64,000 bases of DNA from contig NZ_BSNQ01000009.1 of assembly GCF_030160075.1 (NCBI RefSeq), positions 616,295-680,294 on the forward strand, written 5' to 3'. Made by a program: the position numbers and the translations under genes. The stretch is from Dyella lipolytica. Its GTDB lineage: Bacteria; Pseudomonadota; Gammaproteobacteria; Xanthomonadales; Rhodanobacteraceae. The notes under the pieces were generated by a model, which was given only the letters and a program-made list of their open reading frames with translations, was not told the origin of the DNA and ran no database searches. The number at the start of each line of letters is the position of its first letter. The first letter of the stretch is position 1. Below, piece by piece: positions 59,025 through 64,000 of this stretch.

Positions 59025-59066
59025 GCCCCCTTTTGGGGGCTGTGCAGCGCCTCCATAGTCGGAGGC
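59025..59066 (+). promoter_or_regulatory. tandem hairpins in gshA leader
   Basis: GCCCCC (59025-59030) pairs with GGGGGC (59035-59040) around TTTT. Eight bases further GCCTCC (59049-59054) pairs with GGAGGC (59061-59066) around ATAGTC. A -10-like TACAAT (59007-59012) precedes both, so they would be close to the 5' end of the gshA transcript. The second ends 26 bases before the GTG start; its GGAGGC arm could be a decoy or sequestered Shine-Dalgarno-like sequence. Confidence 0.5.
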
Positions 59067-59092
59067 TATTCCCGTGCGATGAGGCTTGCCAC

Positions 59093-60460
59093 GTGTCCAT
59101 CCCCAGTGCCGTCAAGAGCACCCCCATCCACGGTCGCCAGCAGTTGATCGATTACCTCGCCGCCGGCGAAAAGCCGCGCGACGCCTGGCGCATCGGCACC
59201 GAGCACGAGAAGTTCGGTTTCCGCACCGACGATCTGCGTCCACCTACTTTCGAGGGGGATCACGGCATCCGTGCGCTGCTTGAAGGGATCGCCGCCCGCT
59301 ACGGCTGGGATATCGCCCGCGAAGGCGAGATTCCGGTGGCGCTGACTCGCGGCCAAGCCAACATCACGCTCGAACCGGCCGGCCAGCTGGAGCTTTCAGG
59401 CGCCCCGCTGGAGACCATTCACCAGACGTGTTCCGAAGTGAACAGCCATCTGGAGGAAGTGCGCTCCGTCGCCGACGGCATGGGCCTGGGTTTCCTCGGC
59501 ATGGGTTTCCAACCCAAGTGGCGCCGCGACGAGATGCCGTGGATGCCGAAAGGCCGCTACAAGATCATGCGCGAATACATGCCCAAGGTCGGCTCCCTGG
59601 GACTGGACATGATGACGCGCACCTGCACCGTGCAGGTGAACCTCGATTTCGGCAGCGAAGCGGACATGGTGCGCAAGTTCCGCACCAGCTTGGCGCTGCA
59701 ACCGATCGCCACCGCGCTGTTCGCCGACTCGCCCTTCACCGAGGGCAAGCCCAATGGTTATCTGTCGTATCGCTCGCACGTATGGACCGACACCGACGCA
59801 GACCGCACTGGCATGCTCGATTTCGTGTTCGAAGAGGGCTTCGGCTACGAGCGCTACGTGGATTACATCCTCGATGTACCGATGTATTTCAGCTACCAGA
59901 ACGGTCGCTACATCGATCTGGCAGGCAAAGATTTCAAGCGGTTCATGGACGGCACACTCGACGCCCTGCCCGGCACGCGCGCCACGATGAAGGACTGGGC
60001 CGACCACCTCACCACCGCCTTCCCCGAAGTGCGCCTGAAGCAATACCTGGAAATGCGCGGCGCCGACGGCGGTCCCTGGAATCGCCTGTGTGCATTGCCC
60101 GCGCTGTGGGTTGGTCTGCTTTACGACGACGACGCGCTGTATGCCGCATGGGATTTGGTGAAGGACTTCACTCGCGAGGAACGCCACGCGCTGCGCGATG
60201 GCGTGCCGAAGCATGGATTGAAGCTACCGTTCCGCCAGGGCACGGTGCGCGATCTCGCACATGAAACCTTGCAGATCGCCTCGCATGGTCTCAAGCGCCG
60301 CCATCGGCTCAATCGCAACGGCGCTGACGAAAGCATTTTCCTGGAACCGATGATCGAAATCGTCCACGCCAACCAGACTCCGGCCGAACGCAAGCTCGAA
60401 TTGTTCCATGGCGAATGGAACGGCAGCGTCGATCCGGTGTTCAAGGATTTCGCGTATTGA
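59093..60460 (+). CDS. gshA: glutamate-cysteine ligase, plant type
   Basis: A 455-residue enzyme making gamma-glutamylcysteine, the first step of glutathione synthesis. The residues [53 protein letters not shown] and [19 protein letters not shown] are those of the plant/alphaproteobacterial GCL family (TIGR01436-like), not the E. coli GshA family. Start: GTG at 59093 with GAGG eight bases upstream; a longer frame from 59033 would run through the leader hairpins. Its stop overlaps the start of the exporter gene (TTGA, four bases). It is near the bufferin operon, another thiol system. Confidence 0.95.
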
Positions 60461-61095
60461 TCACGGCGGCAGCGGCACACGCTCCGTTCCTGTCGGGGTT
60501 GCTGCTCGGAGCGTCTTTGATCGTCGCGATCGGCGCGCAGAGTGCCTTCGTCCTGCGCCAGGGCTTGCTGCAGTCGCACCGATTTCCAGTCGCGCTGTTC
60601 TGCGCCCTCTCCGATGCATTACTCATCGCCGCCGGCGTGGGCGGCCTGGGCATCGCCATTGGACACCATCCGCGCGCACTGGCATTCGTCGCAGGCGCTG
60701 GTGCTCTGGCGCTTGTGTGGTACGGCGTGCAGGCATTGCGCCGCGCGATTCATCCCCATGCACTGACTGCTGATACCCACGGCAAATCCAGCAGCATGTG
60801 GCGAGTCATCGCCACATGCGCCGGTTTCACCTGGCTCAATCCACATGTCTATCTCGATACGGTCTTGCTCATCGGCAGCCTTGCCTCGGCATGGCCATTG
60901 CCGGGGCCGCGACTGCTATTCGCCATCGGTGCTGCAACGTCGTCCTTCATCTGGTTCTTCGCGCTCGCCTACGGTGCGCGGCTCCTTGCGCCCCTGTTCC
61001 GCAAGCCGATGGCATGGCGCGTCTTGGACATTCTGATCGCGCTGGTGATGTGGAGTATCGCCAGCAAGTTGCTGATGTCCTTCCTCGCGCGCTGA
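60457..61095 (+). CDS. LysE/ArgO-family amino acid exporter
   Basis: A 212-residue inner-membrane exporter of about six helices. It has [20 protein letters not shown] near the start and the LysE-type [18 protein letters not shown] in the middle, with an invariant LNPH motif. These fit ArgO/LysE basic amino acid exporters. The start is TTG at 60457, overlapping the gshA stop by four bases with AAGGA nine bases upstream; this start places [11 protein letters not shown] at the N-terminus. It is co-transcribed with gshA and its stop adjoins the stop of the convergent DoxX gene with no gap. The substrate could be arginine or lysine or possibly a peptide. Confidence 0.87.
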
Positions 61096-61557
61096 TCAAT
61101 CCTGGGTACGAATACCCAGCCAGCGTGCCACCCAGGTGTCGAGACTGACCTTGCCTGGGCCGGCTATCAGGAACCAGAAGAAGATCAGCGTATAGACCAC
61201 TTCATCGGCTTCGACGTAGTCATCCAAACCCATCAGATTGCTCGACACCACCAGCGTCACGGCCACGATCATGTTGATGATCATTGGGATGGTGACTAGC
61301 CGGGTAAACAGGCCGAGCATCAACAGCAGCCCGCCAACCAGCTCGGTCCACGCCGACAGCGCGGCGCTGAATGCCGGGAATGGAATGCCCCATCCCATAA
61401 AGCGCTGGGTGAAACCCTCCAGGTTGTGGACCTTGGCGATGCCGGTTTCCAGCCAGAAGTAGCCGAACACCAGCCGCACGACCAGTGGCCCAAGCCAGCG
61501 CCAGGCATGAAGTATCTCGAGCAGGCGCGAGGCCTTTGCCGCCATAAATTGACGCAT
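61096..61557 (-). CDS. DoxX family membrane protein
   Basis: A 153-residue inner-membrane protein with four helices. Family signatures are LVVRLVFGYFWLETGIAKVHNL, AFSAALSAWTELVGGLLLML and LFTRLVTIPMIINMIVAV. The start at 61557 (MRQFMAAKASR) has AAGGAA nine bases upstream; the frame is open further without support. It is divergent from bufA with 275 bases between. DoxX proteins are common partners of DUF692 bufferin operons, where they may act as quinone-linked redox proteins; here the gene is on the opposite strand instead of the operon's end. Confidence 0.88.
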   Translation of the reverse strand: MRQFMAAKASRLLEILHAWRWLGPLVVRLVFGYFWLETGIAKVHNLEGFTQRFMGWGIPFPAFSAALSAWTELVGGLLLMLGLFTRLVTIPMIINMIVAVTLVVSSNLMGLDDYVEADEVVYTLIFFWFLIAGPGKVSLDTWVARWLGIRTQD

Positions 61558-61832
61558 CGCACATATTCCTTTGAATGAAGTGAGCGCATGATGCGCGAGC
61601 CCACCCATACCCACCATGTCCGTACGTCCAGGCTTTCTTGCCTTGGGTCCAACCATGCCACAGACCGGACGATCGAGCATAAAAGCGGGATGCCTGGGCG
61701 CAGCTATAAAGAGTTGCAGGCAACACAATGAACCTGTCGAGACCGATACAAGCAGGCGATACCTGCATGACGGACAAGACACCCCCCTTTGCCGCACCGC
61801 GGCGAACACAAACTTCTTACGGAGCCATAACT

Positions 61833-62102
61833 ATGAACATCAAGACAGTCAACGCCAGTGCCATGGCCGTGTTGGTGGCCGGTCTGTTCGCCGCCACCGC
61901 GGTATCCGCCGCACCGGCTGGCGCACCGGCCGGCGACCAGGCAGCGGTCAAGTGCATGAACTCGTCGTCCTGTAAGGGCCACGGCGCCTGCAAGCAGGCC
62001 ACGAACTCCTGCAAGGGCCAGAACTCGTGCAAGGGTCAGGGTTTCACCATGCAGAAGACCCAGGCCGATTGCGACGCTGCGCAGGCCGCCGCGAAGAAGT
62101 GA
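61833..62102 (+). CDS. bufA: BufA-like six-cysteine exported precursor peptide
   Basis: An 89-residue precursor with a Sec signal peptide (MNIKTVNASAMAVLVAGLFA, cleavage near VSA). The mature part of about 63 residues has six cysteines at 41, 47, 53, 60, 66 and 80, with CKG tripeptides at 47, 60 and 66. These are typical of bufferin-type modified peptides, in which DUF692 enzymes turn some Cys into thiooxazoles and copper is bound. The start at 61833 has GGAG eight bases upstream. It is the first gene of the bufA-bufB-bufC unit, separated from bufB by a strong hairpin. It resembles the CKG-rich BufA subgroup. Confidence 0.85.
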   Translation: MNIKTVNASAMAVLVAGLFAATAVSAAPAGAPAGDQAAVKCMNSSSCKGHGACKQATNSCKGQNSCKGQGFTMQKTQADCDAAQAAAKK

Positions 62103-62109
62103 TGGATCC

Positions 62110-62143
62110 GGCGGGGTCGCGCGCACATCGCGCGCACCCCGCC
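62110..62143 (+). promoter_or_regulatory. intra-operon hairpin between bufA and bufB
   Basis: Left arm GGCGGGGTCGCGCG (62110-62123) pairs with CGCGCG (62129-62134) and ACCCCGCC (62136-62143) across a CACAT loop and one bulged C. It begins eight bases after the bufA stop and is followed by CTTATCTCGAG, not a U-tract, so it is more likely an attenuating or 3'-protecting stem than a full terminator. It should make bufA mRNA more abundant than bufB-bufC mRNA. Confidence 0.75.
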
Positions 62144-62169
62144 CTTATCTCGAGAATACGAGTCACGCC

Positions 62170-63027
62170 ATGGCCATAACATCCACGACATGTTCCGGCT
62201 CACTTCCCTATCTCGGCTACGGACTCGGTTTGCGCGTGGAGCACTACGAAGCGCTGCTCGCCAACCCCGGCAAGGTCGAATGGCTGGAAGTGGTTTCGGA
62301 GAACTACATGGTGAGCGGCGGCTTGCCGCTGGTGTGGCTCGATCGTTTCCGCGAACGCTTCCCGCTGGTGATGCATGGCGTGTCGTTGTCGATCGGCAGT
62401 ACCGACCCGCTGGATGACGACTATCTCGCTCGGCTGGCTGCACTGGCACAACGCATCGAGCCGGCGTGGGTGTCCGATCATCTGTGCTGGACCGGCGTGC
62501 AGGGCGTCAATCTGCATGACCTGATGCCGCTGCCGTATACCGAAGAAGCGCTCGACCATGTCGTAAGCCGTGTGAAACGCGTGCAGGACACGCTCAAACG
62601 ACGCATCCTGCTGGAGAACGTCTCCAGTTACGTGAGCTTCGCCGATTCGCAACTGAGCGAATGGGACTTCCTGGCCGCGGTGGCGGAACGCGCCGATTGC
62701 CTGATCCTGCTCGATGTCAACAACGTGCATGTCAGCGCGATGAACCATGGCTTCTCGCCGTTGGATTATCTGCGCGGCATTCCCGCATCGCGTGTACAGC
62801 AATTTCATCTTGCCGGTTACGAGCAAGGCGAGCAATTGATTATCGACACGCACGATGCGCCCGTTTCCAACGCGGTGTGGGACCTGTATCTCGAGGCCGT
62901 ACGCCGTTTCGGTCGCGTATCGACCATGATCGAACGCGACGACAACTTCCCGCCGCTGGCCGAACTCATGGCCGAGCTCGAACATGCCCGCACGCTGGCC
63001 GAACCGCTGCTGCAGGATGCCGCATGA
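62170..63027 (+). CDS. bufB: BufB-like DUF692 (MNIO) iron enzyme
   Basis: A 285-residue TIM-barrel protein of the DUF692/multinuclear non-heme iron oxygenase family. Likely metal ligands occur in the family's order: H69 (VMHGVSL), D103/H104 (VSDHLCW), E149 (LLENVSSY), D182, N185 and H187 (LDVNNVHVSA), H213 (FHLAGY), D226/H228 (DTHDAP) and E255 (IERDDNFP). It would modify cysteines of BufA in the cytoplasm before export, with BufC helping to recognise the peptide. GAGAATACGAG before the start is a moderate ribosome site. Its stop overlaps bufC by four bases (ATGA). Length is normal (about 280). Confidence 0.93.
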   Translation: MAITSTTCSGSLPYLGYGLGLRVEHYEALLANPGKVEWLEVVSENYMVSGGLPLVWLDRFRERFPLVMHGVSLSIGSTDPLDDDYLARLAALAQRIEPAWVSDHLCWTGVQGVNLHDLMPLPYTEEALDHVVSRVKRVQDTLKRRILLENVSSYVSFADSQLSEWDFLAAVAERADCLILLDVNNVHVSAMNHGFSPLDYLRGIPASRVQQFHLAGYEQGEQLIIDTHDAPVSNAVWDLYLEAVRRFGRVSTMIERDDNFPPLAELMAELEHARTLAEPLLQDAA

Positions 63028-63827
63028 GCTCGCTGCAAGCGATCCAGCAACAGATGCTGCAGGCGGTGCTTGCCGAGAAGGCGCTGCCGCCGCACATCGT
63101 GCGCGGTGACCGCATCGCCGATACCAACAGCCGGCTTGCTGTTTATCGGCATGGCTACCGCTTTCGCTTGCGCGATGCTTTGAAAGGTGAATTCACCGGC
63201 CTGCAATGCATGGTTGGCCAGCGCTTCGAGACGTTGCTGGACCGTTACATCGACGCGCATCCTTCCGAGCACTACAACATTCGCTGGTATGGCGCCGGCC
63301 TGGCCGCATTCCTCGACTACGCCCGGCCTTGGCGCGACAAGCCGCAGCTGACCGAGATGGCTCGCCTTGACTGGGCCATTTCCACCGCATTTGACGCGGC
63401 AGACGAATCGAGCATGGGCGTCGCTGAACTATCGGTCGTGCCGCCCGATGCATGGGCCGATCTGCGCTTGTCGTTGCAGAAGAATCTGCAAGTACTTACA
63501 TGTATGCACAACACCGATGCATTCCGCCGCGCCGCGGACCGCGACGCCAAACGCCCGCGCCTGCAACGCTTTGCCCACCCGCACCAAGTGATGGTGTGGC
63601 GACAAGCGATGACGGTTCACTATCGCCCCCTGGATGGCGACGAATGGCAAGTGCTAGGCGCTGCGATGCGCGGCGAGCCCTTCGCGTCACTGTGCGAAAG
63701 GCTGGCCGAGCACCATGACGAATCCGCCGCTACGCTGCGCATGGTGGCCTTGCTGAAACGCTGGCTGGAGGCTGGCCTGATATGCGGCTGGACATTCGAC
63801 CCCTCCTTGTCGGGGTCCGCGATGTAA
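63024..63827 (+). CDS. bufC: BufC-like DUF2063 partner protein
   Basis: A 267-residue protein of the DUF2063/NGO1945 type, the usual partner of DUF692. N-terminal text SLQAIQQQMLQAVLA and DTNSRLAVYRHGYRFRLRDAL is the conserved N-terminal helical domain; RYIDAHPSEHYNIRWYGAGL and VVPPDAWADLRLSL lie in the middle. The partner family binds precursor peptides and passes them to the MNIO enzyme. The ATG at 63024 overlaps the bufB stop (ATGA). A longer in-frame stretch upstream is the antisense-free reading of bufB in another frame and is not used. The gene ends 57 bases before the partial gene. Confidence 0.88.
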   Translation: MSSLQAIQQQMLQAVLAEKALPPHIVRGDRIADTNSRLAVYRHGYRFRLRDALKGEFTGLQCMVGQRFETLLDRYIDAHPSEHYNIRWYGAGLAAFLDYARPWRDKPQLTEMARLDWAISTAFDAADESSMGVAELSVVPPDAWADLRLSLQKNLQVLTCMHNTDAFRRAADRDAKRPRLQRFAHPHQVMVWRQAMTVHYRPLDGDEWQVLGAAMRGEPFASLCERLAEHHDESAATLRMVALLKRWLEAGLICGWTFDPSLSGSAM

Positions 63828-63884
63828 CCGGCGCCGGCTTCCGGCGAATAACTGGCATAGAGCCCAGTCACGGAAGCGTCGCCC

Positions 63885-64000
63885 ATGTACATCGAGCACC
63901 AACCCGTTCTCGCCGACAGGCCGCGGCCGCTGCTGGTCGAGCCAGCCCTGGAATCCCTGCTCAACCAATCCATGCTACGCGTGGACGTCGTGGCCGAGCT
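63885..64000 (+). CDS. start of an unidentified gene (partial)
   Basis: An open frame of 38 codons plus two bases running off the window, starting MYIEHQPVLADRPRPLLVEP. CGGAAG lies about ten bases before the ATG. It is on the same strand as the bufferin operon, 57 bases after bufC, and may be its next gene. The visible residues do not show a signal peptide or a membrane helix and I do not recognise them. Two open frames on the opposite strand overlap it and are unlikely to be genes. Confidence 0.5.
   Translation, partial: MYIEHQPVLADRPRPLLVEPALESLLNQSMLRVDVVAE

Follow-up and report, generated by a model that had tools for sequence, protein, structure and literature searches.

A conserved Buf2-type bufferin operon with a divergent doxX gene in Dyella lipolytica

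Which type of modified peptide would be made by the locus at positions 61096-63827 of the window, and do its Cys pattern and its divergent doxX gene set it apart from described bufferins? By the window, we mean the whole stretch of 64,000 nucleotides that was analysed, from the Dyella lipolytica contig NZ_BSNQ01000009.1. A sequence-only reading had identified a bufferin-type operon, with an 89-residue exported peptide harbouring Cys residues at positions 41, 47, 53, 60, 66 and 80, and genes for a DUF692 enzyme and a DUF2063 partner that overlap by four bases. The peptide and its Cys residues were found as described in the open reading frame 61833-62102, and both downstream genes were verified by their Pfam signatures (PF05114, 375.8 bits; PF09836, 60.2 bits), with bufC beginning within the bufB stop codon (ATGA at 63024-63027). 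The features of the locus are as follows.

61096-61557, minus strand: doxX, divergent to bufA, coding for a small membrane protein of 153 residues (PF07681, 63.6 bits for a cut-off of 23.6)
61625-61652, minus strand: doxX-side copy of a 28-bp element, facing doxX (alignment; best reverse-strand match of the matrix built on bufA-side copies)
61665-61692, plus strand: bufA-side copy of the 28-bp element, facing bufA (alignment; matrix)
61833-62102, plus strand: bufA, precursor of 89 residues with six Cys residues and an apparent Sec signal peptide (NF050166)
62170-63027, plus strand: bufB, multinuclear non-haem iron oxidative enzyme (MNIO, formerly DUF692; NF050167, PF05114)
63024-63827, plus strand: bufC, partner protein with DUF2063 and RRE domains (PME1; PF09836)

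The start of doxX was set by eye at 61557 (ATG, with AAGGAA upstream) in preference to the longer open reading frame listed by the program, and alignments to relatives favoured the bufA start at 61833 over a longer in-frame one at 61728. The apparent Sec signal peptide was recognized by eye as a hydrophobic run followed by VSA-AP. An orthologous locus with the same gene order is present in all 16 genomes of the genus, that of the window included, and the arrangement is therefore not due to chance. No match was obtained in an Rfam search of 61000-64000, nor in 61000-63950 with simple scans for sigma-70 promoters and terminators.

Assignment to the Buf2 family

The precursor scores 66.5 bits on the equivalog model Cu_RiPP_BufA2 (NF050166, cut-off 60), and the enzyme scores 388.3 bits on the MNIO_BufB model (NF050167, cut-off 310). 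The predicted model of BufC contains the RiPP-recognition (RRE) fold and matches NGO1945 and TglI; these relatives came up by fold only, and a PDB sequence search with E values up to 1 gave no match for BufC or for BufA. Both the gene order (precursor, MNIO, partner) and the DUF2063 and RRE domains of the partner are those of Buf2 bufferins. The DoxX protein scores 74.1 bits on the HvfX model NF050144, under its cut-off of 80. With NF050166, NF050167 and DUF2063 all present, the reading as a bufferin-type operon stands, and the locus is more precisely a Buf2 bufferin operon (BufA2, formerly Buf_6/12Cys; 'Cys-Lys' captophorin). 'Cys-Lys' precursors form one of three large groups (Gadgil et al., PMC13097082).

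Other identities were tried and discarded. The precursor lacks the PF10048 match that a Buf1 (DUF2282) protein would give (E values up to 0.01), and it lacks the KCG of the EGKCG captophorins of the oxazolin type. BufC scores 23 bits on the model for HvfC-type partners (NF050145, cut-off 142), and BufB scores 74.6 bits on the MbnB model of methanobactin clusters (TIGR04159, cut-off 325).

The locus shares with the published Buf2 bufferins (BufA2, NF050166; Antoine et al. 2025, PMC12452194) the six Cys residues and their spacing, the Cys-Lys motifs, the bufABC order and the DUF2063-RRE partner, and may differ from them by its divergent doxX gene. The Buf1 (DUF2282) bufferins of Caulobacter have the same type of enzyme pair and the same proposed chemistry, but they harbour four conserved Cys residues and belong to another precursor family. 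The EGKCG captophorins (fontiphorin, oxazolin/HvfA, gonophorin; PMC13097082) are similar in their MNIO and PME1 proteins, their 5-thiooxazole chemistry and their copper binding, the last of these putative for BufA; unlike BufA they have Lys-Cys rather than Cys-Lys repeats, and their enzymes have a Phe where that of the window has an Asp. Methanobactins (MbnABC) have in common with the window locus an enzyme of the MNIO superfamily and copper chelation, again presumed here, but they are characterized by oxazolone-thioamide groups, a leader peptide without a Sec signal and a role in copper uptake (PMC12452194).

The divergent doxX gene and the shared upstream region

Each of the 16 genomes of the genus, counting that of the window, has the doxX gene upstream of and divergent to the operon, as do two other genomes of the family; in another locus of this family (L016), DoxX was not found within 1.5 kb. 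We also analysed 80 named loci, the best 80 of 533 confirmed ones, fetched with two CKG-containing peptide patterns, a sample which leans towards the lineage of the window for these reasons. The named loci nearest to that of the window come mainly from Dyella species. DoxX is encoded upstream and divergently within 3.5 kb in 31 of them, 29 of which have an MNIO gene; in two of the 31 (L130 and L142) it is more than 1 kb away and not adjacent. It is on the same strand in 13 loci and downstream on the other strand in one, and none was seen in the remaining 35, 9 of which have less than 2.5 kb on a side. All 26 best named loci (L063-L088) harbour a divergent doxX gene. In an enzyme tree of 60 rows, from which rows shorter than 220 residues were left out, the window belongs to a starred clade of 26, itself and 25 named loci, all with the divergent arrangement, and the doxX-orientation label changes 4 times on this tree versus 20.3 times in shuffles. 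The divergent doxX gene is thus a conserved feature of the lineage and not a peculiarity of the window.

This survey also yielded some side observations. Genes for a glutamate-cysteine ligase and a LysE-type exporter precede doxX at 59033-61095 and may represent a thiol-supply neighbourhood; they recur in 11 and 7 of the 80 named loci, respectively. A locus titled Candidatus Eremiobacteraeota (L066, CAJCJD010000174.1) is nested among those of Dyella, with an enzyme 94% identical to that of the window, and its title looks mislabelled. Several named loci, including L125 and L128, have a BufA2 precursor gene and doxX with no MNIO gene seen nearby; precursor genes located away from MNIO genes have been reported (PMC12452194).

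Alignments revealed two conserved, outward-facing copies of a 28-bp element in the doxX-bufA gap. We built a matrix from the bufA-side copies found in 16 loci other than the window and used it to scan the remainder of the gap, on the reverse strand, in these 16 loci and in the window (17 in total). The doxX-side block is the best reverse-strand match in 15 of the 17, while in L075 and L076 the best match falls elsewhere in the gap; p reaches 0.139 in L069. Of 27 rows, 17 contain a bufA-side copy recognized by a strict pattern, and three more (L073, L077 and L080) contain one seen by eye; on inspection, the copy is absent from L082-L087, and L088 has a variant, as judged by eye. A matrix built from 14 copies, the two of the window included, scores the pair at 38.6 and 27.3 and the next-best position in the window at 6.5; in the loci of the two further BufA2 genes of the same genome, no score exceeds 4.3. 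In the 4.05-Mb genome of the window, the core pattern has three matches, two of which are the pair itself, and the reversed control has two; no link was found for the third match (L143). A pattern made of the two ends only proved uninformative (24 matches in this genome versus 63 in the control). Of the 40 core matches across the 16 genomes of the genus, 8 coincide by coordinates with the buf locus and are spread over 6 genomes, and the genome-wide searches with the element patterns revealed no wider regulon.

The chances are close to even that the two blocks are unrelated core promoters that resemble each other through shared base composition and species relatedness. The p value of only 0.075 in the window is consistent with this, as is the genus-wide frequency of the core pattern, hardly higher than that of the reversed control (40 versus 36 matches). 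Moreover, the species are closely related, with L070 and L071 nearly identical, and the tests are therefore not independent, and the shuffles preserved single-base composition only. However, the recurrence of the same block as the best reverse-strand match, with p values up to 0.05 in 13 of those 15 loci, argues against a fortuitous resemblance, and so does the forward-strand control, in which p = 0.05 is reached in 2 of the 17 loci.

Paired, outward-facing elements in a shared upstream region suggest that a single factor acts on both copies, as twin promoters or operator sites, and hence that doxX and bufA are under common rather than separate control. The divergence of doxX had already been noticed in the sequence-only reading; its proposal that the two arms may be regulated differently fits less well with these elements, which lean towards common control. 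We also envisage, as a tentative and less probable possibility, that the nearly identical 28-bp elements join doxX to the bufferin operon as one unit in Dyella, Rhodanobacter and Frateuria, and that a single dedicated sigma factor or activator with very few other targets recognizes both of them. If so, DoxX would be a working partner of the bufferin. Sigma and anti-sigma genes occur in Buf1 but not in Buf2 clusters (PMC12452194), and the Buf2 operons, described without sigma genes, would then still have a dedicated switch. Upstream of bufA in Solimonas aquatica (L088), the two elements were seen by eye to have a GGAAC form and to adjoin each other in a GTTCC-GGAAC palindrome, which hints at an overlap between divergent promoters.

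The same genome harbours two more loci with BufA2 and MNIO genes, on contig C3 (957165-958286 and 984169-985300; L002-L004 and L023), whose enzymes are 54-55% identical to BufB of the window. No divergent doxX gene was seen in the flanks examined, and the second locus has a same-strand doxX gene approximately 0.9 kb upstream. Just before one of the BufA2-MNIO loci, genes for an OsmC-type protein, a DUF2282 (Buf1) precursor, DoxX and an alpha/beta hydrolase are found in a row (L033, 1027-3070; about 982043-984086 of contig C3). The Buf1 and Buf2 precursor genes are thus close together there, and their products possibly share one enzyme.

Predicted modification and function of the precursor

A scan of the named loci for six-Cys domains (gaps of 3-8, 3-8, 3-9, 3-8 and 8-18, with at least two CKG) yielded 87 domains from 79 of the 80 loci, L104 having no match. 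A Lys residue immediately follows Cys2, Cys3, Cys4 and Cys5 in 87, 72, 83 and 85 of these domains, respectively, and Cys1 or Cys6 in only 5 and 7. The Cys3 and Cys4 counts represent the fairer test, because Cys2 and Cys5 are within the fetch patterns and the scan accepted only domains with two or more CKG. In BufA, Lys follows each of Cys47, Cys53, Cys60 and Cys66. Given these counts and the precedent of Buf1, in which the central Cys residues are modified and the outer two are joined by a disulphide (figure legend, PMC12452194), we predict that these four residues become 5-thiooxazoles, each losing 4 H, and that a disulphide joins Cys41 to Cys80, both of them otherwise unmodified. The AlphaFold model of BufA (A3, 23 rows) was poor, with a mean pLDDT of 47.2, and was left unused.

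The enzyme carries matching marks. According to Gadgil et al. (PMC13097082), Cys-Lys enzymes have an Asp in place of the Phe that follows the catalytic Asp and have lost a second Arg, which a later sentence of the same paper attributes to the Cys-Lys group, in contradiction with its own logos. In the alignment, BufB has ERDDNFPP at the place of ERDFNFPP in 3BWW, a relative of solved structure, Val23 follows Arg22, and the second Arg is absent from all 64 rows. With Asp258, Val23 and no second Arg, BufB follows the rule given for this subgroup, the positions having been matched to FonB of that paper by motif and via 3BWW, without the FonB sequence. Residue 258 is an Asp in 47 of the 60 readable rows of related enzymes (Ala in 10, Glu in 2 and Asn in 1, with four rows gapped), making this mark common but not universal.

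In relatives, an MNIO enzyme and its DUF2063-RRE partner convert Cys residues to 5-thiooxazoles, yielding products that bind copper (PMC13097082; PMC12452194); the sequence-only reading was correct in giving this as the known function of bufferins. For the Buf2 bufferin of C. vibrioides, a preliminary account reports the same mass loss per Cys, absorbance at 305 nm and a similar function (PMC12452194). By analogy with these proteins, we infer that the RRE domain of BufC would hold the BufA precursor while BufB would oxidise its Cys residues in the cytoplasm, and that Sec would export the peptide to the periplasm, where it would sequester excess copper. DoxX would be an accessory protein in the membrane, its gene being transcribed divergently and probably under the same control. 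Taken as a whole, this explanation, a Buf2 operon with four thiooxazoles, a Cys41-Cys80 disulphide, Sec export, copper sequestration and DoxX as an accessory, appears to us very probable. By title and start of abstract, none of the matches listed in a literature search on Dyella and copper concerns this locus. The proteins of a related EGKCG cluster of Microbulbifer were reported to be undetected with or without added copper (PMC12538549).

It might be argued that the operon serves mainly in the response to oxidative or thiol stress, copper binding being secondary. The literature ties doxX to oxidative or sulphur stress (PMC12452194), the upstream glutamate-cysteine ligase gene recurs in other loci, and a second bufferin cluster of the same genome adjoins an OsmC-type gene. 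However, such neighbour genes may be coincidental, and bufferins have been described to act in copper stress, in a preliminary account in the case of Buf2 (PMC12452194), which makes this alternative improbable.

The Cys gaps of BufA, 5,5,6,5,13, and its richness in CKG had been regarded as unusual and as possibly giving a binding site different from the described ones. Comparison with the bufferin families upheld the kinship and not the singularity: the spacing x5,x5,x6,x5,x12-13 is found in 86 of the 87 domains of the named loci, with 48 instances of 5,5,6,5,13, the commonest pattern, 38 of 5,5,6,5,12 and one of 5,5,8,5,12. In another sample of 62 fetched loci, scanned with a pattern that held the first four gaps fixed and in which L001-L003 duplicate places also present as L030, L023 and L004, 60 have a six-Cys match, all with gaps of 5,5,6,5,12 or 5,5,6,5,13; the other two are of a DUF2282-like type, as judged by a DUF2282 match for L033 and by eye for L032. 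Six Cys residues have been reported in 90% of Buf2 proteins (PMC12452194). In an alignment of 19 relatives retrieved with the family model, conservation of the Lys and Gly residues of CKG at Cys47, Cys60 and Cys66 is complete or no lower than 90%, and CKG thus appears from the alignment to be the family's own motif. A distinct metal site or metal preference of this bufferin is very hard to reconcile with a spacing and a motif that are both the family norm and therefore provide no basis for a different site, even though the last gap is 13 in the lineage of the window versus 12 in many others, and some bufferins may handle other metals, as reported MerC fusions indicate (PMC12452194).

By itself, this locus is an ordinary, well-conserved further example of a very large known class, and it changes little. 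The conservation pattern allows the four modified Cys residues, of the six in Buf2 bufferins, to be sharply predicted, which is useful since the authors of the family paper state that they have not yet identified the Buf2 modification (PMC12452194). The shared doxX-bufA upstream region is a tractable place to address both the control of Buf2 operons and the role of DoxX.
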